Part shown: positions 125 to 62,159 of the stretch, piece by piece
How positions within the stretch are numbered: the first letter of the stretch is position 1
Layout: the number at the start of each line of letters is the position of its first letter
Origin: a virus
Reading direction: 5' to 3' (one strand)
IMG/VR virus record: IMGVR_UViG_3300044613_000656
Span: 1 to 62,171 of that record
DNA length: 62,171 nucleotides
Made by a program: the position numbers and the translations under genes
The notes under the pieces: generated by a model
Database searches by the model: none
What the model was told of the DNA's origin: nothing
What the model saw: only the letters and a program-made list of their open reading frames with translations

Positions 125-643
125 CTAGGCGTCGGCCTTGATAACCCCATCCTCGATGCAGGCCTCTTGGAAGTGATCCCAGAGGTTTTTGAGGGCATGG
201 CATTGACCCTCGGCGGTCTTGAAGAGGTGGTTTTGAAGCATCCGCGCGGCCTCCTCAACAAACTTGATCTCCTCCTTACCTGAAGATCCGGCCTTGGGTT
301 TGGCGATCCCTGCGGCCTGTTTGACCTCATCCATGAAACGCTTGAGTTTCATGTTGACATTGACCTCGCCAGCGGCCTTGGCGCGATCCTTGACTTGGGT
401 TGTTACCCAGTCATAGGCCAATTGGGCGGGTTTGTGACCCGTCCGGGTGATCTTCAGGATCCAGCGGCGCTTGACGCCATCATCCTTGTCGAAGATCTCA
501 AGCGCCATCAAGGCCGCTTTTCTGACCGCACCCTGTTCTTTCTTGGATACATCTAACCAAGTGTCGAGGGTTGTTTGAAAGGCCGTCAAGGGGACGGGCT
601 GGGTTGCGCCAATGGCGCTTGCGACTGCGGTTTGATCTGACAT
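125..643 (-). CDS. Conserved-looking hypothetical protein, 172 aa
   Basis: I do not recognise the family. The protein is mixed alpha-helical with a basic centre (KRRWILKITRTGHKPAQLAYDW) and an Ala/Lys-rich linker near residues 115-128. The reading frame continues 16 codons further upstream, but I chose the ATG at 643 because GGAGAG lies at the right distance before it. The gene stands alone between two intrinsic terminators, with a long leader that carries the 22-bp element and a TCACA/TGTGA-like dyad, so it is probably a separately regulated early gene. No catalytic motif is visible. Confidence 0.75.
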   Translation of the reverse strand: MSDQTAVASAIGATQPVPLTAFQTTLDTWLDVSKKEQGAVRKAALMALEIFDKDDGVKRRWILKITRTGHKPAQLAYDWVTTQVKDRAKAAGEVNVNMKLKRFMDEVKQAAGIAKPKAGSSGKEEIKFVEEAARMLQNHLFKTAEGQCHALKNLWDHFQEACIEDGVIKADA

Positions 644-749: not shown

Positions 750-760
750 TCACAACGTGA
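750..760. promoter_or_regulatory. TCACA-A-CGTGA dyad (operator candidate)
   Basis: One mismatch from the dyad TCACA-N1/2-TGTGA that recurs upstream of several minus-strand genes. Here it lies 107 nt upstream of the start at 643 and about 30 nt downstream (in transcription order) of the 22-bp element. It is preceded on the minus strand by CAGACA, similar to the AGACGGGAA that precedes the sites at 59050 and 61116. Confidence 0.5.
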
Positions 761-1180: not shown

Positions 1181-1188
1181 GTTCTAAT

Positions 1189-1208: not shown

Positions 1209-1215
1209 TCTCCGT

Positions 1216-1437: not shown

Positions 1438-1445
1438 GTATTTAC

Positions 1446-1465: not shown

Positions 1466-1472
1466 TCTCCGG

Positions 1473-1751: not shown

Positions 1752-1771
1752 GTTAATTCTCCAAGTTAACG

Positions 1772-2076: not shown

Positions 2077-2131
2077 ACTCCCCCCGGAAACTCACCATTT
2101 TTCAACTCCCCCCGGAAACTCACTATTTTTT
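2077..2131. repeat. Two tandem ~26-nt direct repeats, 28-nt period
   Basis: The unit ACTCCCCCCGGAAACTCAC followed by Y-ATTTTT occurs at 2077-2102 and 2105-2131 with one clear substitution (C/T). It sits about 45 nt upstream of the small terminase start and could be a terminase-binding (pac/cos-like) or regulator site. No third copy was seen nearby. Confidence 0.65.
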
Positions 2132-2138
2132 AAACTTC

Positions 2139-2167
2139 TTCACATTTCCCAATAATTTCTTTACACT
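2139..2167 (+). promoter_or_regulatory. Candidate sigma70-type promoter for the virion operon
   Basis: TTCACA (5/6 to TTGACA), a 17-nt spacer, then TACACT (4/6 to TATAAT). The -10 ends 8 nt before the terminase ATG at 2176, so transcription would begin at or one or two bases before the start codon. This fits the absence of any ribosome site there. The boxes are weak enough that chance cannot be excluded. Confidence 0.35.
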
Positions 2168-2175
2168 CCCCGCTC

Positions 2176-2772: not shown

Positions 2773-4287
2773 ATGGGTGCATCCGAACTTAGTCCTGAAC
2801 TACTTGAGCAGGTCTTACCAAAACTACCGATAGATAAACAAGCGGTTGCTAAACAGATCTTGGAGGAACTCTCCAAGCGCAAACGCAAAAATAAAGCACA
2901 AGACAAATTTTTAGATTTTGTCAATGCAATGTGGGAGACATTTATACATGGACGGCATCACGAGATCATGGCAGAAGCCTTCGAGCGAGTGGCTCGCGGG
3001 GAACTTAAACGTCTCATCATCAACATGCCACCCCGACATACAAAATCTGAGTTCGCCTCTTACCTGCTACCCGCGTGGTTCCTTGGAAAATACCCTACAA
3101 AAAAGGTCATTCAGACAAGCCACACCGCAGAACTTGCAACAGACTTCGGACGTAAAGTGCGAAATCTCGTTGACAGTGAAAATTACAAAGCCATCTTCCC
3201 CAAGGTCTCACTACAGTCAGACAGCAAGGCTGCTGGACGATGGAACACTTCCCACGGCGGCACATACTTTGCTATTGGTGTGGGCGGCGCTGTCACAGGT
3301 AAAGGTGCAGACCTCTTGATCATTGATGATCCGCACTCAGAACAAGAAGCGATTCTTGCTGAAGTTAATCCTGACATCTACGACAAGGTATACGAGTGGT
3401 ATTCATCTGGCCCACGTCAGCGTTTGCAACCCGGTGGATCAATCGTGATGGTGATGACACGTTGGAGCAAACGTGATCTAACAGCGCAAGTAATTAAAGC
3501 AAGTGTGCAACGTGGTGGTGAAGAGTGGGAAGTAATTGAACTACCTGCGATCCTACCAAGTGGCAATCCACTGTGGCCTCAGTTTTGGAGCCTAGAAGAA
3601 TTAACTGCACTGAAAGATGAACTACCAATTCACAAATGGAACGCACAGTACATGCAAGCACCAACAGGTGCAGAAGGTGCGTTAATAAAACGTGAGTGGT
3701 GGAAGGTGTGGGAACACGATAAACCACCTAAGTGTGATTACATTATTCAGTCATGGGATACAGCGTTTAGTAAAACTAGCCGCTCTGACTTTAGTGCGTG
3801 TATAACGCTTGGCATTTTTCATCCAGAAGATTCACCGAACCCGCAGATAATTTTGCTCGATGCGTTTAAAGAGCGACTTGAGTTTCCAGAGTTAAAAGAA
3901 AAAGCGCTTGAGTTGTATAAAGACTACGAGCCAGACTGTTGCATCATTGAAGCAAAAGCAGCCGGTGCACCTCTGGTGTATGAACTGCGTTCTATGGGTA
4001 TCCCTGTGCAGGACTACATACCAAGCAGGGGTAATGACAAGATTACCCGGGTCAACTCAATTGCTGATATTTTTGCTTCGGGTCTGGTGTACGCCCCGGA
4101 TGCTCGGTGGGCAGAAGAGGTAATAGAAGAGTATGCTTCGTTTCCAGCAGGCGAGCATGATGACTTAGTGGACGCAATGACACAGGCTCTGATACGCTTT
4201 CGGCATGGCGGGCTTATTCGCCTAGAATCCGATGAGCCGGATGATCCTAGTTTTTTCAAGTCGCGGCGTTCCAAGGGGTATTACTAA
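2773..4287 (+). CDS. terL: Terminase large subunit, 504 aa
   Basis: DNA-packaging motor ATPase and headful nuclease. The ATPase domain has a deviant Walker A NMPPRHTKSE (around residues 84-93), Walker B LLIIDDPHSE (acidic pair about residues 185-186) and coupling motif MTRW. The RNase H-like nuclease domain shows QSWDTAF (Asp near 329), IIEAKAAG and a final HDDLVDAM, the expected three acidic clusters. In the phosphate loop the usual glycine of HGKS is threonine. Length is typical. It forms an operon with small terminase and portal. Confidence 0.97.
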   Translation: MGASELSPELLEQVLPKLPIDKQAVAKQILEELSKRKRKNKAQDKFLDFVNAMWETFIHGRHHEIMAEAFERVARGELKRLIINMPPRHTKSEFASYLLPAWFLGKYPTKKVIQTSHTAELATDFGRKVRNLVDSENYKAIFPKVSLQSDSKAAGRWNTSHGGTYFAIGVGGAVTGKGADLLIIDDPHSEQEAILAEVNPDIYDKVYEWYSSGPRQRLQPGGSIVMVMTRWSKRDLTAQVIKASVQRGGEEWEVIELPAILPSGNPLWPQFWSLEELTALKDELPIHKWNAQYMQAPTGAEGALIKREWWKVWEHDKPPKCDYIIQSWDTAFSKTSRSDFSACITLGIFHPEDSPNPQIILLDAFKERLEFPELKEKALELYKDYEPDCCIIEAKAAGAPLVYELRSMGIPVQDYIPSRGNDKITRVNSIADIFASGLVYAPDARWAEEVIEEYASFPAGEHDDLVDAMTQALIRFRHGGLIRLESDEPDDPSFFKSRRSKGYY

Positions 4288-4297
4288 AGGATGAGAT

Positions 4298-6748
4298 ATG
4301 GCAATCGATAAGGCTATAACGCAAGCCCCGTTGGGGTTAGATCAAGAGTTAATGTCCTCTGAGCCGGATATTGAGATCGAGATTGAAGACCCTGAATCGG
4401 TAGAAATACGGGCCGGGGGGCTAGAAATAGAGATTGCCAAGGGCGGGGGCGGCGAGGGTATTGATGAGTTCACCGCCAACCTAGCCGAGTATTTGGACGA
4501 AGGCGCCCTGTCCGACCTAGCAGGGGAAATGCTAGAAAACTTCCAAACGGACAAGGACTCCCGCAAAGATTGGGAAAAGACGTACTTTGACGGGCTAGAG
4601 TTGCTAGGCTTAAACATGCAAGAGCGCATGGAGCCTTGGGAAGGGGCATGCGGGGTGTTCCACCCGATCCTGTCTGAGGCCGTAGTTCGCTTCCAAGCCG
4701 ACTCCATCATGGAGACTTTCCCTGCCAGTGGCCCCGTGCGGACACAGATTATTGGGAAAATCACTAAAACTAAGGAAGATGCAGCCGCCCGTGTCCGTGA
4801 AGACATGAACTACCAACTCACGGTCAAGATGCCTGAGTATCGTGCAGAGCACGAAAGAATGTTGTGGAGCCTAGCCTTGGCGGGTTCGGCCTTCAAAAAG
4901 GTCTACTTTGACCCAAATCTTGATCGTCAAGTCGCTGTTTTCATCCCAGCCGAGGATTTTGTGGTGCCCTATGGGGCCTCAGATCTGCTGACCTGTGAGC
5001 GCTACACCCATGTGATGCGGAAAACAGTCAACGAAGTCAAGAAATTACAGATTGCTGGCTTTTACCGAGACATTGACTTACCCGAACCAGAGTATGGGTC
5101 GGTAGATCGTAGCGATTTAAAGGCTCAAAGTGACGAAGCAAACATTGTTCACGACGACAGATATCAGATTTTGGAGATGCACGTCGATTTGGACATTGAA
5201 GACGACCCGCTTCGGGACGAGAACGGCATCGCTATACCCTATGTAGTGTCTGTCGAGAAGCAAACCCAGACGATACTTGCCATTCGGCGCAACTGGAACC
5301 CTGACGACAAACTAAAAGCCAAGCGTTTACACTTTGTTCACTATGTTTACATTCCCGGTTTTGGGTTTTATGGGTATGGGTTAATCCACCTAATCGGTGG
5401 TCATGCCAAATCCAGCACTTCTATACTTCGTCAACTTGTCGATGCGGGCACTTTGGCGAACTTGCCGGGTGGCTTGAAGACCCGTGGACTGCGGATTAAG
5501 GGTGATGACACCCCGATCTCCCCGGGAGAGTTCCGAGATGTAGACGTTGCAAGCGGGAAAATCAGCGAAAACATCGCTTTCTTGCCTTACAAAGAGCCAA
5601 GTCAGGTGCTATTGGCTCTTATGGATAGGATCGTTGATCAGGGGCGCGGTCTTGCCGCCGTTTCTGAACTAAAGATCACTGACGTAAACAAGGAAACACC
5701 GGTGGGGACTACATTGGCCCTGCTAGAAAGATCTTTAAAGGTGATGTCAGCCGTTCAGGCTCGACTACATGCCTCGATGAAGATGGAATTTGGGCTTTTG
5801 GCGGCAATAATTGCCGAATTTGCCCCCGATGAGTACGAATATGAGCCGCAAACCGATGATGAGATGGTTCCGGCGACCCGAAGCGACTACGAAGTTACAG
5901 AAATCATCCCTGTTTCCGATCCAAATGCGGCAACAATGTCCCAGCGGGTGGTTCAGTACCAAGCAGCCCTCCAATTAGCCCAAACGGCACCCCAGTTATA
6001 CGACATGGCGCAGTTACATAGGCAGATGTTGGAGATTTTGGGGGTACGAAACGTCGCAAAACTGATTCCGACGGCTGAAGATGAGGTTCCAAAGGATCCC
6101 ATCACGGAAAACATGAACGCAATCAACCTAAAACCGCTGAAAGCCTTCATTTATCAGGATCACGAAGCCCATATCCGGGTTCATATGAACTTATTACAAG
6201 ATCCTTTGATGCAACAGATGATTGGGCAGAACCCAGCAGCCCCCCGTATCCAAGCCGCAGCACAGGCACATATTGCCGAGCACTTGGCGTTTGCCTACCG
6301 CCAGCGTATGGAGGAGGCTATGGGTGTTGCCCTGCCGCCGCCTGATATGAAGATGCCTGAGCAGTTTGAGGTTGAGTTGGCCCGTGTCGCGGCCCAAGCC
6401 TCTGACTTGGTGTTGGGTAAGAGTAAGACCGAGATTGCGGCACAGCAGGCTCAGATCGCTGCCAATGACCCGATCACACAGATCCAGAAGCAGGAGTTGG
6501 CGCTAAAAGCAGCGGAAATTGAAAGAAAGTCTAAGAAAGACGCAACGGACGCCGCCGCTAAAGCGGATCAGATCCGCATTGAGGAGGAGCGTATCAAGGC
6601 TCAAGCCGAGATTGAAGGCGCTCGGTTGGGTATAGAAGTTGCCAAGGCCAAAGAAGATATGAAAGGGCGCTTTGAGGCTGAGGGAGTACGTCTAGGGGTA
6701 GACATGGCGCGGTTACGACAAGACAAGTCAAAGCCACCTACCACCTAG
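4298..6748 (+). CDS. Portal protein, 816 aa
   Basis: Dodecameric gate for DNA entry and exit at one capsid vertex. The gene follows large terminase by 10 nt with an AAGGA ribosome site. The body contains portal-like stretches: GMWSLALAGSAFKKVYFDP-type text near residues 190-205, FIPAEDFVVPYGA, and FVHYVYIPGFGFYGYGLIHL. The last ~110 residues are an Ala/Glu/Lys/Gln-rich coiled coil (from about QKQELALKAAEIERKSKKDA), fitting a long barrel-like C-terminus of P22-type portals. An acidic N-terminal 60 residues look disordered. Confidence 0.92.
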   Translation: MAIDKAITQAPLGLDQELMSSEPDIEIEIEDPESVEIRAGGLEIEIAKGGGGEGIDEFTANLAEYLDEGALSDLAGEMLENFQTDKDSRKDWEKTYFDGLELLGLNMQERMEPWEGACGVFHPILSEAVVRFQADSIMETFPASGPVRTQIIGKITKTKEDAAARVREDMNYQLTVKMPEYRAEHERMLWSLALAGSAFKKVYFDPNLDRQVAVFIPAEDFVVPYGASDLLTCERYTHVMRKTVNEVKKLQIAGFYRDIDLPEPEYGSVDRSDLKAQSDEANIVHDDRYQILEMHVDLDIEDDPLRDENGIAIPYVVSVEKQTQTILAIRRNWNPDDKLKAKRLHFVHYVYIPGFGFYGYGLIHLIGGHAKSSTSILRQLVDAGTLANLPGGLKTRGLRIKGDDTPISPGEFRDVDVASGKISENIAFLPYKEPSQVLLALMDRIVDQGRGLAAVSELKITDVNKETPVGTTLALLERSLKVMSAVQARLHASMKMEFGLLAAIIAEFAPDEYEYEPQTDDEMVPATRSDYEVTEIIPVSDPNAATMSQRVVQYQAALQLAQTAPQLYDMAQLHRQMLEILGVRNVAKLIPTAEDEVPKDPITENMNAINLKPLKAFIYQDHEAHIRVHMNLLQDPLMQQMIGQNPAAPRIQAAAQAHIAEHLAFAYRQRMEEAMGVALPPPDMKMPEQFEVELARVAAQASDLVLGKSKTEIAAQQAQIAANDPITQIQKQELALKAAEIERKSKKDATDAAAKADQIRIEEERIKAQAEIEGARLGIEVAKAKEDMKGRFEAEGVRLGVDMARLRQDKSKPPTT

Positions 6749-6757
6749 GAGAACTAA

Positions 6758-6982
6758 ATGTCTACATACATACAAGTAGGGGAAGTTAAGTCTTTTGAGG
6801 AGCAGATTAGAAAAAGACTGCGGGATCACTTAAACAATTCAGCCGACGACCTAGCCACCGGCGGCGCAACGGATTATGCCGATTATCGATTTCGGGTCGG
6901 CGTAATACAAGGACTTGCTATGGCAGAACGGGAAATCCTTGACCTAATCGAAATCGCTAAAAAGGCTGAAGATTCACTATGA
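6758..6982 (+). CDS. Small hypothetical protein in the head operon, 74 aa
   Basis: Helical protein (FEEQIRKRLRDHLNNSADDL, then IQGLAMAEREILDLIEIAKK). AGGAG ribosome site. Its TGA overlaps the next ATG (ATGA at 6979-6982), so it is translationally coupled to the co-chaperonin gene. Possibly a head-assembly accessory; family not recognised. Confidence 0.75.
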   Translation: MSTYIQVGEVKSFEEQIRKRLRDHLNNSADDLATGGATDYADYRFRVGVIQGLAMAEREILDLIEIAKKAEDSL

Positions 6983-44144: not shown

Positions 44145-44441
44145 TTACTCGGCTAAATTTTTTATGAAGTCTTGGATTTCTTTTACAGAAACCTTCCTTG
44201 GCTCACGTTCTCCAGCGAACCAGTAATACACGCCTGATCTTGTCATACCAAAGTAACTTGCCACAGTTTGCACGGGCACGTTCTTCGCAATACATATTCT
44301 GCCCAACTGCACACCAATCTTAGACTGATCTGCCTCGGCGTTCTTTTTTACGATTGAAAGTGTGTAGCCGACCACGGTCATCCCCAGTAAGTAAAAGGTG
44401 TCGGGATCCACTAACCTCGCCCGACGCGAGTTGAGCCTCAC
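44145..44441 (-). CDS. HTH DNA-binding protein, 98 aa
   Basis: KNVPVQTVASYFGMTRSGVY YWFAGEREP is a clear helix-turn-helix like those of Cro/CI-type or IS-type regulators. The frame starts with GTG at 44441; a GTG at 44411 (VDPDTFYLL) or the ATG at 44381 are alternatives with better local ribosome sites. It lies between SSB and primase genes and may regulate early/late switching or bind the dyads found upstream. Effector unknown. Confidence 0.7.
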   Translation of the reverse strand: MRLNSRRARLVDPDTFYLLGMTVVGYTLSIVKKNAEADQSKIGVQLGRICIAKNVPVQTVASYFGMTRSGVYYWFAGEREPRKVSVKEIQDFIKNLAE

Positions 44442-52092: not shown

Positions 52093-52228
52093 AAAAATCC
52101 TTATTCTTTATTCCTAAGTCAAGGGACAGCCGCTCGTTCTCGTCTTTAACCCTGTGGTATGCCTGTCTCAACTGCTCAACTTCTTTCTTTAACCGCTCAA
52201 TCTCGGCCTTGTATTCTTCGGGGGTCAT
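52079..52228 (-). CDS. Small coiled-coil protein, 49 aa
   Basis: MTPEEYKAEIERLKKEVEQL RQAYHRVKDENERLSLDLGI: a classic leucine-zipper-like heptad pattern. Start overlaps the previous stop (ATGA), and the end overlaps the methyltransferase start by 14 nt. Possibly a small oligomerisation partner; unknown. Confidence 0.65.
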   Translation of the reverse strand: MTPEEYKAEIERLKKEVEQLRQAYHRVKDENERLSLDLGIKNKDFYDQR

Positions 52229-52431
52229 TCTTTCACCCTATAAAACTTCTTGGTTCCGATGCGTACCAAGTCCGCAATACCGTTTTCAACAAACCTGTTT
52301 AGGGTTCGGGCTACCCTGTTCTCGCTTACGATCCATTCTTTTGCAATTGTTCTTGCCTGAACGGGGGTTTTCTTATGTGAGCACAAATAATCCCACACCC
52401 CCTGCTCAAAGTCAGTCATCTCAACTGCCAC
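52225..52431 (-). CDS. Winged-helix regulator, 68 aa
   Basis: TDFEQGVWDYLCSHKKTPVQ ARTIAKEWIVSENRVARTLN RFVENGIADLVRIGTKKFYR: three-helix HTH followed by a beta wing. GTG start at 52431 has GGAGAAGAATA before it; an ATG four codons later is an alternative. Possible DNA-binding repressor/activator of early genes; its site is unknown. Confidence 0.7.
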   Translation of the reverse strand: MAVEMTDFEQGVWDYLCSHKKTPVQARTIAKEWIVSENRVARTLNRFVENGIADLVRIGTKKFYRVKE

Positions 52432-54134: not shown

Positions 54135-54398
54135 CTATTTTTTTACCCTGTTTTTACTGCCTTTCGGTCTACCAACCTTCTTTGGGGCGGTAGTCACAGA
54201 TGTGACTTTCTTGGGTTGTCCCTTTTGTTTGAGTTGCTGACCTAACATCTTAATGATCTCTGCCTTTTCAGCCAGCAAATTATCGCGCCGCTTCATTTCC
54301 CAGTCCCAATAATCGCACTCATCTCTGAGTATGCTTACTTCCCGCGCCAACAAATCAATCAATATGCCCATATTTAGACTATCAATCTTGACCTTCAT
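54135..54398 (-). CDS. Small protein with C-terminal AT-hook, 87 aa
   Basis: Helical N-terminal body (LIDLLAREVSILRDECDYWD WEMKRRDNLLAEKAEIIKML) and a basic tail KVGRPKGSKNRVKK, where GRPKGSK is a canonical AT-hook core that inserts into the minor groove of AT-rich DNA. Preceded by GGAGAAATTAA. Leader contains two GC hairpins and a terminator from the preceding unit. Possible nucleoid-like regulator or replication accessory. Confidence 0.7.
   Translation of the reverse strand: MKVKIDSLNMGILIDLLAREVSILRDECDYWDWEMKRRDNLLAEKAEIIKMLGQQLKQKGQPKKVTSVTTAPKKVGRPKGSKNRVKK
54194..54205. promoter_or_regulatory. TCACA-GA-TGTGA dyad (inside a coding region)
   Basis: Exact TCACA and TGTGA arms with a 2-nt spacer, inside the AT-hook gene. 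It may be a chance occurrence or a silent extra site. Confidence 0.3.
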
Positions 54399-54415
54399 TT
54401 AATTTCTCCTGTATT

Positions 54416-54430
54416 TTCCCCTGTGGGGAA
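54416..54430 (-). other. Hairpin in the leader of the AT-hook gene
   Basis: TTCCCC-ACA-GGGGAA on the minus strand, 17 nt upstream of the ATG at 54398, just before its ribosome site. A second hairpin GGCGGG-AATA-CCCGCC lies at 54441-54456. Both follow the terminator at 54467-54495 and could stabilise or regulate the mRNA 5' end. Confidence 0.5.
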
Positions 54431-54466
54431 CGGGTTTCAAGGCGGGTATTCCCGCCCTCCTGTGGG

Positions 54467-54495
54467 TAAAAAAAAATCCCACCGCTTGGGTGGGA
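54467..54495 (-). terminator. Intrinsic terminator between the MoxR/VRR-NUC unit and the AT-hook gene
   Basis: On the minus strand, stem TCCCACC/GGTGGGA with a 5-nt loop, followed by nine or more T residues. It lies about 60 nt past the VRR-NUC stop and separates the MoxR/VWA module from the next set of genes. Confidence 0.88.
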
Positions 54496-54555
54496 CAAAC
54501 TTGGAGAGTAAAAGTTCCCTATATTTTTAGGGATGGAGTAAAAATCGGTCAGTCG

Positions 54556-54566
54556 TCACAATGTGA
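54556..54566. promoter_or_regulatory. TCACA-A-TGTGA dyad (operator candidate)
   Basis: Exact dyad with 1-nt spacer, spanning the stop codon of the VRR-NUC gene and starting the 157-nt intergenic leader of the AT-hook gene. It is preceded on the minus strand by AGATGGGAAAG, matching AGACGGGAAA at 59050 and 61116. Confidence 0.5.
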
Positions 54567-54858
54567 CTTTCCCATCTAAGAAATCTAAAACCGCAATAAG
54601 TTCCGTAAGATCCTCACGTACCACCAAAGCCAAGCCCTTACACAACCTAATACGCTCTAAGTTGTTTTCCTGTAGGGCAGTTGTTCTGCCGCTGCCAGCC
54701 TTGCACTCAATGCCAATAAACTTTCCCCTATAACAACACACGATGTCGGGGATGCCCGCTGATCCATAACCCGATGCCACCGGGTAGAACCAATAGGCTC
54801 CCCTCTCCGTAAGAAGTTTAGTTACCTTAGTCTTGACTTTCCGTTCCGGAGTTTGCAT
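54556..54858 (-). CDS. VRR-NUC nuclease, 100 aa
   Basis: Small virus-type nuclease: YGSAGIPDIVCCYRGKFIGI ECKAGSGRTTALQ gives the catalytic Asp38, Glu51 and Lys53 of the GxPD...ExK motif. N-terminal KVTKLLTERGAYWFYPVASG is the usual family start. Probably cuts branched replication or recombination intermediates. Overlaps the preceding gene by 32 nt, so the start is uncertain. Confidence 0.88.
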   Translation of the reverse strand: MQTPERKVKTKVTKLLTERGAYWFYPVASGYGSAGIPDIVCCYRGKFIGIECKAGSGRTTALQENNLERIRLCKGLALVVREDLTELIAVLDFLDGKVTL

Positions 54859-55819
54859 CTATCGTCACCTGTGGATCTTCCAAATCCTCACCGACAATAA
54901 TATACACCGGAACCTTGTTCTCGACTAGCGTCACAGTACCAACACCCTCTACGCCTTGCGAAGGTTTTTGATTCTTATAATTGCTAGGTTCTATTGACTG
55001 CTGTGCGATCTCAAGCAAACATAACTTACCGAAGATTGCTGGGTGCAAGTCCTCTTTCTTTTCATGTGTTGACATAAAATACTGTGCCACCATGTCGTTT
55101 GAGTTCTCCTTCTTGACAACTCGCCGATGCACCACCCGATAGTCACCATTGTGATTCTTGACGACCATGACTGAATACTTACGTAGTCTGTCTCGGTACT
55201 CTTTGGATTCCTCAAACTCCTTGCGTCTTTCTAAGAACTTAGTACGCAAAGTGTTGACCGCAACGGTATCTCGACCATTGAACAAATCATCGAACAACTC
55301 CAAATTACTATCGACATTGGCATAGGCCACATTACTAAACACGCTCTCAAGAGAACGCTTGTGGGCACTAAACTTTGTTGCCTCCTCGATTACTTCTTTA
55401 GCATCTTGAGCAAAATACTTATGATTGGCTGGAGTCGCAGCCTTGATCAACTTCACACAGTCTAAGATCTTAGCCGTATTGCAAGTCCGCTTGATAGACT
55501 TTGGATCTTTCTTATGCACGTTGTAATTGTATTCAAACTGCAACTGCGTGTTTGTGCGCTCCTCACCCGCAGGGTTATACAAACTAATCTTACAGACCAA
55601 TTGCTCAAAGTCATAGACATGGATGGAATCAAAACAAGCAAAAGAACTATTGTATGCACCCTCTACTTTGAGATCAAACTTCTTGTACGGATGGGTGAAC
55701 ATAAGATGTTCTATTGCATACCCATACATTCGATCAGTCTCCTTGGCCCGATCAATATAATTGATCGCTTCGGCGGGCCGACACCATTTAGTTTCTAGTG
55801 GATTAAGTGGTTGTAACAT
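54827..55819 (-). CDS. Unknown protein in the MoxR/VWA module, 330 aa
   Basis: Not recognised. Two-part protein: N-terminal beta-rich domain (HLMFTHPYKKFDLKVEGAYN SSFACFDSIHVYDFEQLVCK), helical middle (AQDAKEVIEEATKFSAHKRS, LRTKFLERRKEFEESKEYRD) and a C-terminal part NHNGDYRVVHRRVVKKENSN. Preceded by GGAGGAAATCACA, where the ribosome site and start codon overlap a TAACA-T-TGTGA dyad. Co-transcribed with the 283-aa, VWA and MoxR genes, so probably works with them. Confidence 0.7.
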   Translation of the reverse strand: MLQPLNPLETKWCRPAEAINYIDRAKETDRMYGYAIEHLMFTHPYKKFDLKVEGAYNSSFACFDSIHVYDFEQLVCKISLYNPAGEERTNTQLQFEYNYNVHKKDPKSIKRTCNTAKILDCVKLIKAATPANHKYFAQDAKEVIEEATKFSAHKRSLESVFSNVAYANVDSNLELFDDLFNGRDTVAVNTLRTKFLERRKEFEESKEYRDRLRKYSVMVVKNHNGDYRVVHRRVVKKENSNDMVAQYFMSTHEKKEDLHPAIFGKLCLLEIAQQSIEPSNYKNQKPSQGVEGVGTVTLVENKVPVYIIVGEDLEDPQVTIDANSGTESQD

Positions 55820-55824
55820 TGTGA
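55814..55824. promoter_or_regulatory. TAACA-T-TGTGA dyad over the start codon
   Basis: One mismatch from the TCACA-N-TGTGA dyad; it covers the ATG of the 330-aa gene (minus strand CACAATGTTA). Binding here would block translation or a local transcript. Confidence 0.35.
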
Positions 55825-55832
55825 TTTCCTCC

Positions 55833-56684
55833 TTAGAAATCGAATTTGTTTAGGATTTCATTGACACGACTACGCACGTCCTGACGAACAAGTACGCTAT
55901 CCCTGAGATCTTTGGCTGTGATACCCAACAACGCTTGCTCCAAGTCCTTACGGGCTTGCTCCAACTGCGGGTCATTAGTCACATTGAGATTAGTCAGCAT
56001 CCCACACAACTCGGTTGCATTACCAATCAATGAATCACGAAAGACCTTCTTGGCGCCGTCGTCAGAAGATTCAAGCCGATCAGAAAGATGTGTTAGCGTG
56101 GTATGCAAACGCTTCCAGATATCCGCCATAGCCTCTTTCAACTTGTTGTCGTAGTGACTTGTGTATTGAGTTTGCAGTTCAGCCATCGCCTCGTTGCCAA
56201 CATCAACACGAAAGTCCCCCGCCTCGGGTAGAGGGAAGTAGTTCACGTTGAAGTAAAACTTACGCTCGATCTCGTCTTGGTTCGGATACTCGTCACGGTT
56301 GAATAGACTACCCAACTGAAACGCCATCTGAGATATTAAGGTTGGGTACATAGTCACAAAGTGATTCTTCAGCGTATTAAACTCTTGCATCTTGGTGTTC
56401 ACTTCAGATGTGTAGTTTATGTACTGCTTCAACGTGAGCAAACGAATACCACTATCTGACCAAGGTATGGTCTGCTTGTAGTGCCAATTACGAAAGTTAC
56501 CCACAAAGTTCTTGATGTCCTCAAGTTCTTTGACCCCTGCCAATAAGTTCTTACGGTAGTTACCCGCCTTGACCTTAGTGCCTTTACTGAGATCCACCTC
56601 ATCAGACACCTGACGGTCTAACTTGTTTGCAGTCCAATTACCAATGTTCAACTCCACCAACATCGCTTGATTTGAGATACTCAT
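55833..56684 (-). CDS. Unknown protein in the MoxR/VWA module, 283 aa
   Basis: Mostly helical: GTKVKAGNYRKNLLAGVKEL EDIKNFVGNFRNWHYKQTIP, NTKMQEFNTLKNHFVTMYPT, MADIWKRLHTTLTHLSDRLE, and RKDLEQALLGITAKDLRDSV LVRQDVRSRVNEILNKFDF. I do not recognise it with confidence, although similar proteins accompany MoxR/VWA pairs in aquatic phages (memory). AAGGAGAGTAAAA ribosome site. Role unknown. Confidence 0.7.
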   Translation of the reverse strand: MSISNQAMLVELNIGNWTANKLDRQVSDEVDLSKGTKVKAGNYRKNLLAGVKELEDIKNFVGNFRNWHYKQTIPWSDSGIRLLTLKQYINYTSEVNTKMQEFNTLKNHFVTMYPTLISQMAFQLGSLFNRDEYPNQDEIERKFYFNVNYFPLPEAGDFRVDVGNEAMAELQTQYTSHYDNKLKEAMADIWKRLHTTLTHLSDRLESSDDGAKKVFRDSLIGNATELCGMLTNLNVTNDPQLEQARKDLEQALLGITAKDLRDSVLVRQDVRSRVNEILNKFDF

Positions 56685-56700
56685 TTTTACTCTCCTTAGA

Positions 56701-57894
56701 TTAAAGATGAATTACTTTACCAACAACATCTACTGACTTCGCACCACTTACTATCCAAACTGTCGGAGGCATGCCTGACCAATCCGTTGCACTAACCTTA
56801 CCAATGTAACCATCAGTTAAGACAATCATCACCTGAGATGTCACATTGTGATTCCTCATGTAGTTAGCCACACACGTAGGATCAGTACCACCACCACCGG
56901 AGGGCTTCGTGCTACTAGCAATCTCAAGCACTCTGTCCTGCTCATACACCTCATGCTTACACACATTAGTATCCCAATACATGAGATGCACTTTCTGTGG
57001 CATGACCGTACTACAGATATGCGCGGTCTCGGTTAGAAACTCTTGCAACTCTCTGCCACCAATCGAGCCTGATGTATCAATAGCAATCACAATACTGTCG
57101 ATAGCCTCGGCGATCTGCGTTGGCATATAGATATCTTGTGACAAGAACCTACGGCTAGGTCTGCGCCATGAAGAATCACTTCTGTTACTACAGGTCGAAA
57201 TCATGTATTCCCGCAGGAGTTCATAAGGATTGATCTTCGGATTAAGAAGTTCTGCAAAGGCACGGTCTCCACCACTACCGGCCTCACCTTTCTTCTTGAG
57301 CAACACTTCTCCTTGGCGCAGTGCCTGATCGATCTTGCGCTCAACCTCTTTGATCTTTTCCTTATCCCAACTCTTGGCCTCATCCCAGCCATGCTCATCA
57401 AAGCCATCGCCATCACCATCGCCACCTTCGGGATCACCACCCTCTTGTTTCTCCTTCATCAGAATGTTAAAGACCTGTCTTGTGTCCATGCCATCAAACC
57501 GCTCATCCATCAGACCACCTTCGGGCATAACACACACTTCGCCATGCGGGTCGTACTTCTTGATTTGCAGGTTGATCACATAATCGCAAGCCATGTTGGC
57601 AACTTTAGCGTCGATGTCATGTAAGTCACGCCAGATCAAAAGATGTTTGTAAGCCTTGTGCCAATTCTCATGCAAGACCACAAACGCCAACTCTTTCTCG
57701 GACAACTTACTGACGAACTCGCGGCCATACTTGACGTTAAGACCATCCGTATAAGCCGTTTTTGTAGGTGAATCAATAACATCAACATCACCAGACACCA
57801 ACACACCTGACATAAGAATAAACTTCTTATGCGCCATGAGAGACACATGAACTCTGTGCAGTCTCTCTTCCACGCTCAACTTTGTTATATCCAT
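56701..57894 (-). CDS. VWA-like protein with HExxH metallopeptidase-type motif, 397 aa
   Basis: N-terminal domain carries LAFVVLHENWHKAYKHLL (HENWH, residues 75-79, a zinc-type HExxH), followed by an acidic Gly/Asp-rich linker and an AAA-lid-like helical region. The C-terminal domain is von Willebrand type A with a MIDAS site AIDTSGSIGGRELQEFLTET (Asp273). This is the DUF2201-type protein paired with MoxR ATPases in cells and phages. The frame extends to 57915; ATG 57894 has GAGGAGAAG before it. Confidence 0.85.
   Translation of the reverse strand: MDITKLSVEERLHRVHVSLMAHKKFILMSGVLVSGDVDVIDSPTKTAYTDGLNVKYGREFVSKLSEKELAFVVLHENWHKAYKHLLIWRDLHDIDAKVANMACDYVINLQIKKYDPHGEVCVMPEGGLMDERFDGMDTRQVFNILMKEKQEGGDPEGGDGDGDGFDEHGWDEAKSWDKEKIKEVERKIDQALRQGEVLLKKKGEAGSGGDRAFAELLNPKINPYELLREYMISTCSNRSDSSWRRPSRRFLSQDIYMPTQIAEAIDSIVIAIDTSGSIGGRELQEFLTETAHICSTVMPQKVHLMYWDTNVCKHEVYEQDRVLEIASSTKPSGGGGTDPTCVANYMRNHNVTSQVMIVLTDGYIGKVSATDWSGMPPTVWIVSGAKSVDVVGKVIHL
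56841..56851. promoter_or_regulatory. TCACA-T-TGTGA dyad (inside a coding region)
   Basis: Exact dyad inside the VWA gene (encodes Asn-Val-Thr). With the near-match at 58470-58480, which also encodes Asn-Val-Thr in the MoxR gene, it may be coincidence or codon-driven. Confidence 0.3.
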
Positions 57895-57911
57895 AAACTT
57901 CTCCTCATAAA

Positions 57912-57922
57912 TCACATTGTGA
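57912..57922. promoter_or_regulatory. TCACA-T-TGTGA dyad upstream of the VWA gene
   Basis: Exact dyad, 18-28 nt upstream of the ATG at 57894, just before the GAGGAG ribosome site. It fits an operator or a translational control site. Confidence 0.55.
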
Positions 57923-57939
57923 CTACGCCGCTGCTGTTC

Positions 57940-59004
57940 CTACTTAGCAAAGATGTAATTGTTTTGGGTAGCCCACTCAATAAACTCTTTGCACCCTGCT
58001 GACTTGGAATTATTTGAATCAAGCAACTGACGGGCAAATAAGCCTTGGTTCTCTTTCTTCAAACGATTCATGTACGTCACCCACTTCGGCATCTGTTGAG
58101 ATGTAACATGAGCCACCGCTTTGTACACAAGAATACAAACTGCGATAGGATCATCCGGTATGGGAGCCGTATCGGGACTAGCGATCAACGATTCAAAGGT
58201 CGGCAACTTGTCATCGAGATTCACAAACGCATGCAGATCCCTAGCACCCGCTTCACCTAACAAACCAATCAAAGATGCAAGCATCGCCTCATCACCAATA
58301 GCCTTACGCTTCTTCACAATGAAAGATGCTTTCTCAAGGGAACGTGGAGAAACGAAACCTAACTGTTGTTCCTTCGGGTTGTAGACGTACTTGTTCTTGT
58401 CCTGACCGCCATCCATGTACGAATACATGACCTCGGGATACTGATCAACAAATGCCAAAACTTCTTCTGTCACATTGTTATTCATCGCCCACTTTACCCA
58501 TTGTTTAGATGTAGGCTTACGGAACACAACGGGGGCCATACGGTTTTTAGCGTGCGCCTTGAGATGATCACCTACGTTATCCGCAAACAAGTTACCCGTA
58601 GCGAATACAAGAGACCCTTCCGGCAACTTGATGTCACCAATCCTACGCTCTAAGATCAAAGGCAATAGCATGTTCTGCACCGATTGGCTGGCCTTGGTCA
58701 ACTCATCTAGCATGATGATGACGGGCTTGCCTGTATGCAATTTGAAATGCGAGTTCGGATAATACTTAGTGCAGTTCAACTCCCGATCAATAAACGGCAT
58801 CGCAATATCGCCAAGATCAAGGTTTGCACAATCGATGTACGCAACCTCATGGGAAGGGAAACGTGCGCTGAGTGGTTTTAGCATGCTCGATTTGCCAACC
58901 CCCGGCTCGCCTTGAAACAAATAGCAAACGTCACTACCTAGTTCTGCGACCATCGATACTGCTTGGTCATAATCTACTGATACTCCAAATGATACTCGGC
59001 TCAT
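57940..59004 (-). CDS. MoxR-type AAA+ ATPase, 354 aa
   Basis: Walker A QGEPGVGKSSML (residues 31-42), Walker B PVIIMLDELTKA (about residues 93-104), sensor 1 VFATGN, and NRMAPVVFRKPTSKQW near the Arg finger. FVSPRSLEKASFIVKKRK is the lid start. MoxR ATPases work with VWA proteins to remodel or insert cofactors in partner complexes (established for RavA-ViaA and similar). The gene is the first of the module and has a dyad-containing leader. Confidence 0.93.
   Translation of the reverse strand: MSRVSFGVSVDYDQAVSMVAELGSDVCYLFQGEPGVGKSSMLKPLSARFPSHEVAYIDCANLDLGDIAMPFIDRELNCTKYYPNSHFKLHTGKPVIIMLDELTKASQSVQNMLLPLILERRIGDIKLPEGSLVFATGNLFADNVGDHLKAHAKNRMAPVVFRKPTSKQWVKWAMNNNVTEEVLAFVDQYPEVMYSYMDGGQDKNKYVYNPKEQQLGFVSPRSLEKASFIVKKRKAIGDEAMLASLIGLLGEAGARDLHAFVNLDDKLPTFESLIASPDTAPIPDDPIAVCILVYKAVAHVTSQQMPKWVTYMNRLKKENQGLFARQLLDSNNSKSAGCKEFIEWATQNNYIFAK
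58470..58480. promoter_or_regulatory. TCACA-T-TGTTA near-dyad in the MoxR gene
   Basis: One mismatch from the dyad, inside the coding region (Asn-Asn-Val-Thr). Low weight as a functional site. Confidence 0.2.
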
Positions 59005-59049
59005 ATAAACTCTCCAAAAGATGTTAATGATTTAACTTCAAAATAAAAA

Positions 59050-59061
59050 TCACATATGTGA
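59050..59061. promoter_or_regulatory. TCACA-TA-TGTGA dyad upstream of MoxR
   Basis: Fully symmetric 14-mer ATCACATATGTGAT, 46-57 nt upstream of the ATG at 59004. On the minus strand it is preceded by TAGACGGGAA, shared with the site at 61116. Strongest operator candidate. Confidence 0.65.
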
Positions 59062-59069
59062 TTTCCCGT

Positions 59070-59141
59070 CTACTGCAAGACAGCAACTGCAAGATCCAAC
59101 AAATACAAAACCACAACTACCTTGATCAACAACATGCTCAT
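59070..59141 (-). CDS. Possible leader peptide, 23 aa, hydrophobic
   Basis: MSMLLIKVVVVLYLLDLAVA then VLQ; a GGGAGTAA ribosome site precedes the ATG. It lies within the MoxR leader between the TATATATGGGA element and the dyad. Could be a tiny membrane protein or a leader peptide; codon-level proof is not possible at this size. Confidence 0.4.
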   Translation of the reverse strand: MSMLLIKVVVVLYLLDLAVAVLQ

Positions 59142-59195
59142 TTACTCCCATATATATAAGACAACAAACAGGAACTTTAGTTCCCCATCAGGGGC
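59141..59195 (-). promoter_or_regulatory. Promoter-like leader of the MoxR unit
   Basis: On the minus strand: GGGGAACTAAAGTTCC (itself a dyad), then TTGTCTTATATATATGGGAG. The similar unit at 61182-61230 has AGGAACTAAG and CTGTCTAACATATATGGGA. Shared spacing and sequence suggest a phage-specific or host-like promoter for early genes; TATATAT is a plausible -10. Confidence 0.5.
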
Positions 59196-59209
59196 ATTTG
59201 GCTCGTCTT

Positions 59210-59413
59210 TTACACCTCCACTAGATTTGTTATTACCTCATTGATTGTGTCTGCCAACTCGGGCCAATCAGTCTTTAAGTGTTCCACGATTACCCGCAGT
59301 CGCTCTACGTCATCACCACCTATGATGTAATCAGAACCTGAATCATTGTCCACCATCAGGGTCTGGTTGTTGTTCTCATACATGGTTGTCCAATTCCTAT
59401 TATTTTTTGCCAT
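59210..59413 (-). CDS. Small acidic hypothetical protein, 67 aa
   Basis: MAKNNRNWTTMYENNNQTLM then VDNDSGSDYIIGGDDVERLR VIVEHLKTDWPELADTINEV: a short beta-alpha protein of early-gene type. AAGGAC ribosome site; the first ATG in frame (preceded by GTG) is at 59413. Function unknown. Confidence 0.6.
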   Translation of the reverse strand: MAKNNRNWTTMYENNNQTLMVDNDSGSDYIIGGDDVERLRVIVEHLKTDWPELADTINEVITNLVEV

Positions 59414-59543
59414 CACGTTTGTCCTTTCTGATGTCGTTCCATATCAATAAACCAATCCCTACAAAAACAATTACTACAAACCACACTAATCCTTGGGCCG
59501 CTTCTGCCGCCATGCCCGATTCGTACCACCAACTTGTTTTCAT
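59400..59543 (-). CDS. Small single-TM protein, 47 aa
   Basis: MKTSWWYESGMAAEAAQGLV WFVVIVFVGIGLLIWNDIRK then DKRDGKK: one clear membrane helix (about residues 19-35) with a basic cytoplasmic tail. GAGGAGAGTGAA ribosome site. Overlaps the next gene by 14 nt. Possible superinfection or membrane-modifying early protein; unknown. Confidence 0.62.
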   Translation of the reverse strand: MKTSWWYESGMAAEAAQGLVWFVVIVFVGIGLLIWNDIRKDKRDGKK

Positions 59544-59554
59544 TTCACTCTCCT

Positions 59555-59833
59555 CTACTGTGCATGCTCACGTTCAAAGTCATCAGGCGGTAAGTGCATC
59601 GACAACCATAAATCCATCTCGTAGGAATCCTCTACCTCTGCCCAAGATTGGTCGTCATCCATAGCCTTCACACACCGCTCTGCCCACACCTCCGCATCTT
59701 TCTGTAGACGGAAAATCCCCGTTGCTACTTTTAAGGGAATCGGAATACTCGGGTATTCTAAGTAGACGTGTGCTGAGAACTTATACTTTGCACGCCCATC
59801 CCCCGTCTGCCCAATCATTGTCTTAATCTTCAT
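59555..59833 (-). CDS. Hypothetical protein, 92 aa
   Basis: MKIKTMIGQTGDGRAKYKFS AHVYLEYPSIPIPLKVATGI FRLQKDAEVWAERCVKAMDD: small beta-alpha protein. ATG at 59833 has AAAGGAGAG before it (frame open to 59854). Acidic C-terminus. Family unknown. Confidence 0.65.
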   Translation of the reverse strand: MKIKTMIGQTGDGRAKYKFSAHVYLEYPSIPIPLKVATGIFRLQKDAEVWAERCVKAMDDDQSWAEVEDSYEMDLWLSMHLPPDDFEREHAQ

Positions 59834-60164
59834 CAGGTAACTCTCCTTTCTCACGCATCTCTTGCAGTACGTGCTTGGCTATCGCTCCGAGATTCTTCTC
59901 GTCATAGTTTTTCTCAGACACATACCGCATGCTTGCCTCGCCCAACTCCATGCGAGCCAACTGTGTCTCAGGTCTGCACAATCCATAGTGATGGATCAAT
60001 GCAGTTAAGTGCGTTACTGTTTTCTTTAACTTCTCATTGTTTGACTTCAACTGCGAGTGATTTATTGTGTCCTCAAACTCCTCCATATCCTTGCCCTCAA
60101 GGTAATGCCTGATCTCAGCGTTGAGATCCACATACGTCTTACCTGTAACACCTTTAATCTTCAT
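59823..60164 (-). CDS. Helical hypothetical protein, 113 aa
   Basis: MKIKGVTGKTYVDLNAEIRH YLEGKDMEEFEDTINHSQLK SNNEKLKKTVTHLTALIHHY. Begins MKIK like its downstream neighbour, hinting at a common origin for the 5' ends. Charged, helical; GGAGAAACTAA ribosome site. Unknown. Confidence 0.65.
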   Translation of the reverse strand: MKIKGVTGKTYVDLNAEIRHYLEGKDMEEFEDTINHSQLKSNNEKLKKTVTHLTALIHHYGLCRPETQLARMELGEASMRYVSEKNYDEKNLGAIAKHVLQEMREKGELPDED

Positions 60165-60489
60165 TTAGTTTCTCCATGTTTCTTGCACATACCAATTGTG
60201 GTTCATCGTACTGCGGAAAGATGACGTATAAACCTGTGCGCTCAAAGAACCTAGCCACGACCCCAGCACACTTAGTAACACGATCCAAGACAACTTCGCC
60301 AATTGCAAATCTCCTATTAAAATATTTTACGTGCTTATGATCATCGGCGTGCATACACTCCGTCACCACCGCCTTTTCCTCATGGGCATACTTGTGCATA
60401 TAATTTAACTCTGCCTCAGTAAATTTGTCCCACCTCTCCATCTCGGTAAAAATGTGTACTAATTGTATTGGTTCGGCTTCCTCTCTCAT
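60154..60489 (-). CDS. Hypothetical protein with SH3/KOW-like segment, 111 aa
   Basis: The segment NRRFAIGEVVLDRVTKCAGV VARFFERTGLYVIFPQYDEP is an SH3/KOW-like beta barrel pattern; the N-terminus is helical. A similar segment is found in the next gene (60486). Overlaps on both sides (ATGA). Unknown. Confidence 0.65.
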   Translation of the reverse strand: MREEAEPIQLVHIFTEMERWDKFTEAELNYMHKYAHEEKAVVTECMHADDHKHVKYFNRRFAIGEVVLDRVTKCAGVVARFFERTGLYVIFPQYDEPQLVCARNMEKLNED

Positions 60490-60761
60490 GTTGTCTCCAA
60501 CCTAGAGATCTCACTACACCAACACAACACGCTAGCCTCACTATCAAACACTATCCGAACTGCATCTAGTAAGGGGATGTGTTTTACAACCACACCCTTT
60601 TCACCATTGAACTTCCACACCACAACTTCTCCAACCTGAAAGTCACGTTTGTTATTGTCGGTCACTTCACTACTCCTCTTGATTATTGACGCATCTAAAC
60701 GACCCGCAAACCAATTGAACAACTTGGCCTCCAAGTCCTGACATAAAAACTCATCGCTCAC
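60486..60761 (-). CDS. Hypothetical protein with SH3/KOW-like segment, 91 aa
   Basis: GTG start (GTGA overlap with the TM gene stop). KRDFQVGEVVVWKFNGEKGV VVKHIPLLDAVRIVFDSEAS gives the same small barrel as its neighbour. N-terminus SDEFLCQDLEAKLFNWFAGR is helical. Possible nucleic-acid-binding protein; unknown. Confidence 0.65.
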   Translation of the reverse strand: MSDEFLCQDLEAKLFNWFAGRLDASIIKRSSEVTDNNKRDFQVGEVVVWKFNGEKGVVVKHIPLLDAVRIVFDSEASVLCWCSEISRLETT

Positions 60762-60874
60762 TCCTTATCCCCCCTCCCCATCACAATGCACGCTAAGAAG
60801 TAAACGCAAAAGGCAATCAGGATCAGTCCCAGTGCGTCGTTGAACATCCGTAGAAACTCTGCAAACTCTCTCAT
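60758..60874 (-). CDS. Small single-TM protein, 38 aa
   Basis: MREFAEFLRMFNDALGLILI AFCVYFLACIVMGRGDKE: one membrane helix (about 14-33). Start overlaps the zinc-ribbon gene stop (ATGA) and its stop overlaps the next GTG (GTGA), so it is in a fully coupled chain. Function unknown. Confidence 0.62.
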   Translation of the reverse strand: MREFAEFLRMFNDALGLILIAFCVYFLACIVMGRGDKE

Positions 60875-61095
60875 TTCACCAACCCTCCCTTGTTATTAAT
60901 CCCTCTAGCCGCCTCAAGGGCAAACTCCCTTGTGAAGAACATCGGCCCTTGCTTATGGGGGGTAAGTACGCACCACCCCTTGCGTTCTTTTACTGCCTCC
61001 TTGTCACCGCAAGCAAGACATGTTTTCTTGCCTATCTCCCACCTCCCTGCGGTTATGTATTCACCGCAAAAGATGCATTGGGTTTCTGTACTCAT
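60871..61095 (-). CDS. Zinc-ribbon early protein, 74 aa
   Basis: MSTETQCIFCGEYITAGRWE IGKKTCLACGDKEAVKERKG: CxxC...CxxC zinc ribbon, then WCVLTPHKQGPMFFTREFAL EAARGI. The frame is open to 61176; the ATG at 61095 has GGAGAG before it. Its leader carries the dyad at 61116 and the promoter-like unit. Possibly regulates transcription; unknown. Confidence 0.7.
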   Translation of the reverse strand: MSTETQCIFCGEYITAGRWEIGKKTCLACGDKEAVKERKGWCVLTPHKQGPMFFTREFALEAARGINNKGGLVK

Positions 61096-61115
61096 AGAAC
61101 TCTCCAGTCCAAAAG

Positions 61116-61127
61116 TCACATTTGTGA
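61116..61127. promoter_or_regulatory. TCACA-TT-TGTGA dyad upstream of the zinc-ribbon gene
   Basis: Exact arms with a 2-nt spacer, 21-32 nt upstream of ATG 61095. On the minus strand preceded by CAGACGGGAAA, as at 59050. The two leaders share the dyad, the preceding sequence, the promoter-like unit and the GGAGAGTT ribosome-site region. Confidence 0.65.
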
Positions 61128-61181
61128 TTTCCCGTCTGATGTAGTGCATCGGTTGACGGGGTCGTAGGGAGCGCATCTTGT

Positions 61182-61230
61182 CCCATATATGTTAGACAGT
61201 GGGCGGGGGTCTTAGTTCCTAGACGGGGGA
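61182..61230 (-). promoter_or_regulatory. Promoter-like leader of the zinc-ribbon unit
   Basis: Minus strand: AGGAACTAAGACC, then CTGTCTAACATATATGGGAC, then AAGATGCGCTCCC. It parallels the MoxR leader (59141-59195) and shares TGCGCTC with the 22-bp elements at 1-22 and 790-811. It is probably the transcription start region for the early gene chain from 61095 leftwards. Confidence 0.5.
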
Positions 61231-61290
61231 GATCTTAGGGGCGGGATTGGTTAAGTTCTCAGGGGTTGTTTGGGTGTTGGGGTGGCTCAT
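61219..61290 (-). CDS. Possible tiny ORF, 23 aa
   Basis: MSHPNTQTTPENLTNPAPKI SPV; AAGGTGAGCC precedes the ATG. It ends inside the promoter-like unit. Pro/Thr-rich and without other support, so it may be chance. Confidence 0.25.
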   Translation of the reverse strand: MSHPNTQTTPENLTNPAPKISPV

Positions 61291-61303
61291 CTGGCTCACC
61301 TTT

Positions 61304-61579
61304 TTAGCATCTGTCGTCTTTATCTTCCTCGTTCCACTTCTCTAGCACCTCCTCACGCCTAGCCCTCTCGTTGCGCTCGGCTATCTTTATGGCATCGGAC
61401 TTACTTAGCCTTGCCACCTGCATATCGGGGTGACAGTAGCCAAACTCTTTTTCTAGCGATATCTGCATCCTCACCTGCGCCTCTACATACCTTAGTCGCG
61501 CCATGAGTTCTTCTTTCCTGATCTTCTTGAGTTCGCGGCGCTCCATCTCCTCAAACATCTCGTCTTTCGCGCTACCCAT
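61304..61579 (-). CDS. Highly charged helical protein, 91 aa
   Basis: MGSAKDEMFEEMERRELKKI RKEELMARLRYVEAQVRMQI SLEKEFGYCHPDMQVARLSK: amphipathic coiled coil. Start overlaps the upstream stop (TAATG). Unknown; probably a small early factor. Confidence 0.65.
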   Translation of the reverse strand: MGSAKDEMFEEMERRELKKIRKEELMARLRYVEAQVRMQISLEKEFGYCHPDMQVARLSKSDAIKIAERNERARREEVLEKWNEEDKDDRC

Positions 61580-62130
61580 TATTTCCCCCTTATCGCCTTG
61601 GCAACCATCTCGTCGAACCGCACCCGTATCAGTTCAGCCACCACACCTTCGACTATCGTTTTCTCCACGGCGCGGATCTCTCGGGCCACACCCCTTTGGA
61701 TCTCGCCCACCACCATCTCCACAAGTCTGCCCCCCAGTAGTTCTTTGACTTCCTCAAACTGACTTTTAGATAGCAACGTGCCCCCACTTAGGGTTTCCGC
61801 AAGCCTGACTTTTGACTTGGTTCTTGGGCCGACGGCGACTCGGGAGTGTTCGGGGTTTACGCATAAGTTGTTATTGCAAGTGCGGAATATGCGGCCCGGC
61901 TGGTGGTCAGGCACTTTGTTGATGGTCTTGAAGATGTAGGTCGCGGCTGAGCCGTTCTTGTATCGGGCTACGTTGGTGTTCTTATCGACTGCGCCTTGCC
62001 AATCCCAGCAGTTGGTGACGGTGTTGGGCTTGGTGTTTTGGTGTACCCAATCTATAAAGATGTTTAGGTGTTCTTCGGTCTCGGGCTTGCCGGTGCTTGT
62101 TTGGTAGTTGGGTTCGCGGGTGGTTAGCAT
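61579..62130 (-). CDS. HNH-type protein with zinc loop, 183 aa
   Basis: CWDWQGAVDKNTNVARYKNG, then PDHQPGRIFRTCNNNLCVNP EHSRV: the CxNxxCxNPEH loop of HNH_3-type phage homing/early nucleases (His76, Cys85, Cys90, His95). The C-terminal 80 residues are a charged helical domain. It begins 40 nt from the end of the window, with a weak dyad at 62149-62159 upstream. A DNA nuclease is likely; activity not certain because a second metal-binding Cys pair is incomplete. Confidence 0.78.
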   Translation of the reverse strand: MLTTREPNYQTSTGKPETEEHLNIFIDWVHQNTKPNTVTNCWDWQGAVDKNTNVARYKNGSAATYIFKTINKVPDHQPGRIFRTCNNNLCVNPEHSRVAVGPRTKSKVRLAETLSGGTLLSKSQFEEVKELLGGRLVEMVVGEIQRGVAREIRAVEKTIVEGVVAELIRVRFDEMVAKAIRGK

Positions 62131-62148
62131 GGTTGGGTTCCTTGGTAG

Positions 62149-62159
62149 TAACGGTGTGA
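62149..62159. promoter_or_regulatory. Weak TAACG-G-TGTGA dyad
   Basis: Two mismatches in one arm from TCACA-N-TGTGA. It lies 19-29 nt upstream of the ATG at 62130, the same distance as the sites at 57912 and 61116. If the molecule is circular, the 22-bp element at 1-22 lies upstream. Confidence 0.3.

Follow-up and report, generated by a model that had tools for sequence, protein, structure and literature searches.

Which protein might read a short inverted repeat that recurs through the early half of a phage genome, and what would follow if it did? The question is raised by IMG/VR virus record IMGVR_UViG_3300044613_000656, analysed here in its entirety (62,171 bases; the window). The record represents a tailed phage of aquatic bacteria from a mostly uncultivated, aquatic clade. 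Its virion genes lie on the plus strand (terminase at 2773), and a minus-strand early region encodes a DUF927 primase-like protein, an SNF2 helicase, a PD-(D/E)XK nuclease, DNA polymerase A, a Hjc/VRR-type nuclease, a VWA/DUF2201 protein, and a MoxR-like ATPase. A first-pass annotation of the letters alone had singled out the dyad TCACA-N1/2-TGTGA as the candidate operator of an early regulon. The observation is real and more interesting than was claimed: relatives carry dyads of other sequence in their early regions, dyad types and first-early-gene families agree at the loci where both were assigned, and a binder can be proposed from these comparisons. A dyad regulon of early genes is well supported and is wider than the earlier reading could see.

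Dyads in the window and its relatives

The window contains six exact copies of TCACA-N1/2-TGTGA, all at the places first listed, as compared to 0.19 expected (standard deviation 0.46, maximum 2, in 100 dinucleotide shuffles); the claimed excess is thus borne out, and shuffled sequence fails to reproduce the count. The exact copies are confined to 54194-61127 in the early half, the virion half has none, and arms spaced by 0 or by 3-12 nt do not occur as exact copies in the window. CRP recognizes TGTGA-N6-TCACA. The dyad is built of the same pentamers in the reverse order, as had been pointed out, with a spacer of 1-2; a CRP-like reading was rejected, as the window holds no copy of the N6 form.

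Two exact copies lie within genes: TCACAGATGTGA (54194..54205) inside the gene at 54135-54398 (minus strand) and the copy at 56841..56851 inside the VWA/DUF2201 gene. TCACAATGTGA (54556..54566) covers the stop codon of 54556-54858 (minus strand), ~160 nt upstream of 54135-54398. The remaining three occupy leaders, at 57912..57922 before the VWA gene (start at 57894), at 59050..59061 (AAATCACATATGTGATTT) 45 nt ahead of the MoxR-like ATPase start, and at 61116..61127 before a small minus-strand gene starting at 61095. Three of the four near copies reported earlier have one mismatch each: TCACAACGTGA (750..760) upstream of the first early gene, TAACATTGTGA (55814..55824) over the start codon of 54827-55819 (minus strand), and TCACATTGTTA (58470..58480) inside the MoxR gene. 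The fourth, TAACGGTGTGA (62149..62159), upstream of 61579-62130 (minus strand), has two mismatches and is weak. The count of seven in ten sites in leaders or over start codons holds (54556, 57912, 59050, 61116, 750, 55814, and 62149), with 54194, 56841, and 58470 in genes. Additional one-mismatch copies are found at 55979, 56354, and 55143; two more in the virion half (15418 and 24579) do not rise above background.

The sites are kept in related phages. G001, ~92% identical to the window in MoxR, has five exact dyads, four of which are orthologous to window sites 750, 54194 (as TCACATCTGTGA), 54556, and 59050; the sites at 55814 and 58470 persist as near copies, that at 57912 has one mismatch, and that at 61116 is degenerate. 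G002 has 13 exact dyads, including orthologues of the in-gene sites at 56841 and 58470, and G003 has nine. The word common to the window and G001 is AA(A/G)TCACA with spacer 1 or 2; G002 and G003 use the longer (C/T)GTCACA-N-TGTGAC(G/A), with spacer 1 throughout. Across a first set of 90 loci, which include overlapping copies, the arm TCACA gave 49 matches versus 0-6 for each permuted arm. In G003 (87,451 bases) core genes are duplicated (two primases, two 287-aa genes, and two helicases), and this record may join two phages.

To look beyond these phages, we reached relatives via DNA polymerase and MoxR and searched de novo for any over-represented gapped palindrome. These relatives lack TCACA dyads, and nearly all have a dyad word of their own; in 73 of 76 MoxR-centred loci the dyad was stronger than the best of 152 shuffles. 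By lineage, the half-sites are (G)TCACA, TACTGTC, TAATGTC, CTAACA, TTAAC(A), TAAACA, TGACA, GTTATCA, CTAAA, and GTAAA, with spacers of 1-4. Consensus words of individual loci are ATACTGTC-N1, AATAATGTC-N1, CTAACA-N1, CTAACA-N2, TAACA-N3, ATTAAC-N4 (often TTAACA-N2), TAAACA-N1/2, CTGACA-N2, GTTATCA-N2, CTAAA-N3, and GTAAA-N3, and the words of all lineages have a compact architecture in common. Relatives carry 5-21 dyads each, with up to 21 in one metagenomic record, and in metagenomic relatives the dyads are restricted to the early region. The cultured Rhizobium phage RHph_TM3_14A (MN988472.1; L236, L238) has 34 copies of TTACC-N5/6-GGTAA (GTTACC-N5/6-GGTAAC), 23 in the early region and 11 elsewhere; the annotation of MN988472.1 is silent on them. 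No dyad was found in the 44-46 kb examined of the cultured relatives KPP25 and Rollin, and G007, whose first gene comes from another family (phrog_1448), has no clear dyad.

Dyads avoid genes yet are not limited to intergenic gaps: early genes of nine genomes contain 48 of the 112 exact sites, versus 89 expected (p ~1e-17). Among 504 distinct exact sites, 146 are near a start codon with a Shine-Dalgarno-like sequence and 101 (~20%) lie inside open reading frames of at least 100 aa, away from starts. Most genomes have own-class dyads upstream of the first gene. Of 46 phages, 38 have a dyad of their own class in the MoxR leader, no more than 130 nt from the start and most commonly 18-35 nt before it, so different words occupy equivalent positions. 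Where such a leader has a recognizable sigma70-type promoter, the dyad is downstream of it, in the transcribed leader. The dyad is therefore not a classical promoter-overlapping operator, and its position favours a roadblock or leader-level mechanism over promoter occlusion. Dyads of the TTAAC class often have AGGA as a spacer and enclose the Shine-Dalgarno sequence (ATTAAC-AGGA-GTTAAT-ATG; L169, L162, and other loci). Four MoxR leaders of this class (L165, L166, L168, and L169) also have a second inverted repeat, AACAGTGGT...ACCAACTGTTA, directly after the -10 box, which may be a further operator or a hairpin at the mRNA 5' end.

The first early gene

The gene proposed to encode the dyad-binding regulator is the first of the early operon (125..643, minus strand; 172 aa); its families sort with the dyad class wherever both were assigned. 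The gene adjoins the divergent small-terminase gene, and its product has 165-210 aa in every genome in which the junction was seen. The window is incomplete at its ends: contig L126 is 100% identical to it over positions 1-6852 and extends ~1.05 kb beyond position 1, so that at least ~1 kb of phage sequence (L126:6853-7908) is missing from the record. In this extension, two further exact dyads, AATCACAATGTGATT and AATCACACTGTGATT, flank a duplicate first gene (L126:7004-7522). Another conserved element, resembling GGGAACTGGTATnCGTGCGCTCTCTCGCC, lies upstream of the dyad before the first-gene copies (window ~770-815, minus strand), with similar elements in G001, G002, and G003.

First-gene families are helical, have no known relative, and are mutually unrecognizable in sequence. 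Concordance with the dyads was counted on loci where dyad class and first gene are both assigned; there, every family has its own dyad type. The window family goes with (G)TCACA, the G004/G006 family with TACTGTC or TAATGTC, the G005 family with CTAACA-N1 (N3 in G005 itself), the G009 family with TAACA-N2, and the TT family with TTAAC(A), GTTATCA, or CTAAA. Within the G004/G006 family, TAATGTC and TACTGTC phages differ in a central helical segment of the protein. N1 and N2 phages were also screened against each other for exclusive gene families, on loci of unequal extent that cover other genes less well than the first gene. The first gene alone gave a family exclusive to N1 and present in all seven N1 loci covering this gene, and it alone gave an exclusive family uniting L191 with G009/G010. 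L188 and L191 group with the N1 phages in two trees (MoxR; VWA plus 283-aa proteins). Both carry N2 dyads, and L191 carries an N2-type first gene, against the core-gene trees. L188/L191 thus represent one independent coupling event of word and first gene.

The MoxR-like AAA+ ATPase (57940..59004, minus strand; phrog_1297), the VWA/metallopeptidase-like protein (56701..57894, minus strand; DUF2201, phrog_1314), and an unknown 283-aa protein form a cassette (55833-59004) kept in 11 of 11 fuller records, with distant matches in N4-like (Schitoviridae-type) phages. A search of bacterial genomes for a prophage or host link returned distant AAA+ relatives only.

Proposed mechanism and competing explanations

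The dyads may be dispersed sites for one phage-encoded early regulator, most likely the first-early-gene product, a reading to which we give close to an even chance. The 172-aa protein, encoded twice in the window phage, would be made first in the early operon and would bind dyads upstream of its own gene, in many early leaders, and inside some early genes. Once bound, it would lower early transcription and, much as at stoperators, would probably form a roadblock downstream of promoters. Protein and sites would change together and thereby give each lineage its private word. We infer the binding itself, DNA as its target, the repression, and this order of expression. The 15 records, including the window, contain no Phage_integrase match, that is, no tyrosine integrase (other recombinases and partition genes were not searched), so a role in immunity is not implied; shut-off of early genes in lytic growth is as likely. 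The most ambitious form of this proposal, a clade-wide brake in which one fast-evolving early protein with an unrecognized nucleic-acid-binding fold acts on 5-21 matching early dyads and at least ten private specificities serve as immunity groups, strikes us as somewhat unlikely.

Several observations weigh against the first-gene product. The families are not significantly similar in sequence; homology between them was rejected, as profile comparisons were unconvincing (the best, G005-TT, reached E 5e-4 at 30% probability; for G005-G009, E was 2e-3) and linked the window family to no other. No family has a Pfam domain or a recognized helix-turn-helix (HTH), and some of the proteins are acidic (isoelectric point 5.3). 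The confident TT-family model (pLDDT 86.6) is all-helical, and fold searches of PDB and BFVD gave it no significant hit, which is no proof of a new fold; AlphaFold2 modelled the window family with low confidence (pLDDT 43). Shared ancestry would by itself produce some of the agreement between word and first gene, L188/L191 being the only independent case and a single event. Finally, a rigid dimer does not usually read sites of mixed spacing in one phage, such as the 1 and 2 of the window or the 5 and 6 of the Rhizobium phage.

The main rival, which we hold to be unlikely, is a translational operator: the dyads would be RNA hairpins in leaders, where a phage protein, possibly again the first-gene product, blocks ribosomes at many early genes. 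The first-pass annotation had dismissed an RNA stem on account of the short spacer. That is not strictly so; in silico, hairpins with 3-nt loops do form (-0.1 to -6.6 kcal/mol across the classes), and every class can fold with loops of 3-4 nt. The 146 start-associated sites, the Shine-Dalgarno sequence enclosed by many TTAAC-class dyads, and the position in the transcribed leader of MoxR genes with a clear promoter are all consistent with action on mRNA, as are the variable spacer within a phage and the orientation bias of the centre base in some classes. However, the 101 sites inside open reading frames and away from starts do not fit a leader hairpin, hairpins of several classes are near 0 to -1 kcal/mol, and classes A and B (TCACA and GTCACA) have no orientation preference at the centre base. 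G-U pairs are not clearly favoured at one-mismatch sites (3 versus 7 for GTCACA; 59 versus 44 overall), and some G002/G003 sites directly follow terminator-like U-runs.

Recruitment of a host regulator to the dyads is improbable. Phages often use host factors and the lineages may differ in host, yet the word changes follow a phage gene, including in the lineage with conflicting core genes; closely related phages differ in word, and the words retain one compact architecture.

A conserved phage protein other than the first-gene product, in particular the XRE-type HTH protein (44145..44441, minus strand), is still less probable as the binder. The first-pass annotation had named this protein and a TrmB-like winged-HTH small protein (52225..52431, minus strand), and neither proposal is supported by the comparison. 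The XRE gene is present in most dyad-bearing records, and its helix in the window, TRSGVYYWFAG, presumably resembles lambda CI helix 3 (half-site TATCAC), which we take as a lead only. An XRE-type repressor should change this helix with its operator word; instead, the recognition helix VSRVTVYSWFRG is identical in TACTGTC phages L136/L190 and TTAAC phages L165/L166/L169, and the protein was rejected as the specificity determinant. Moreover, the gene has no detectable homologue in G006, a near-complete 65 kb record with 14 exact sites, was not found in the partial records G011 and G014, and is present in G007, which lacks a clear dyad. The TrmB-like protein, rejected as well, is not conserved with the dyad and has a relative in just one of the three other closest phages.

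Chance or non-regulatory repeats, to which the small numbers in the window alone might point, are a negligible explanation given the excess over shuffles, the conservation by position, and the new words at equivalent leader positions.

Relation to known systems

The closest parallel is with the stoperators of Cluster A mycobacteriophages such as L5 and Bxb1 (PMC6550527, PMC9283540). Both systems have many short dispersed sites, at and away from promoters, of a phage-specific sequence that diverges with a phage-encoded protein (here a candidate); in Cluster A, stoperators and repressors diverge together (PMC6550527). Stoperators number 10-50 dispersed copies, many outside promoters, a pattern matched by the six exact and further near copies of the window, the 5-21 of its relatives, and the in-gene sites. 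A stoperator is a 13-bp asymmetric sequence, usually in one orientation, in the genome of a temperate phage with an integrase or partitioning system; an immunity repressor reads it as a monomer on asymmetric DNA (PMC9283540). In contrast, the dyads are palindromes with spacers of 1-6, the centre base of GTCACA is unbiased, the candidate protein has no recognized DNA-binding domain, and no tyrosine integrase match was found in the 15 records. Because the sites are palindromic and the protein is apparently unrelated, we do not class the dyads as stoperators; at most, the system may work like them.

The SAS/ESAS motifs of Cluster K mycobacteriophages, whose function is not established, are likewise repeated at the starts of a subset of genes, and like the TTAAC class here they can contain the Shine-Dalgarno sequence (PMC3203893). 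SAS is one asymmetric 13-bp word, GGGATAGGAGCCC, used cluster-wide and immediately upstream of starts, whereas the dyads are palindromic and lineage-specific, with 146 of 504 sites start-associated and ~20% in genes. None of the per-locus consensus words resembles SAS, and start association is common to the TTAAC class only.

Lambdoid phages have six palindromic operators for CI and Cro, located at two promoters, and the specificity is peculiar to each phage. The dyads are likewise palindromic and phage-private, but number up to 21 per metagenomic record and are mostly away from promoters.

No prior description of the motif system was found in the open literature (subscription papers fell outside coverage). 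Together, the observations suggest a fast-evolving genome-wide gene switch that was not previously described. The lineages, with their different words and first genes, offer a ready cross-binding matrix, and the cultured Rhizobium phage with its 34 sites provides a laboratory entry point. If the proposal is true, dispersed-operator control, known mainly from Cluster A, would extend to a large clade of aquatic phages, with palindromic sites and an unrelated protein, and would raise the evolutionary question of how the specificity of one protein can shift in step with that of a dozen or more sites, which can be tested directly.

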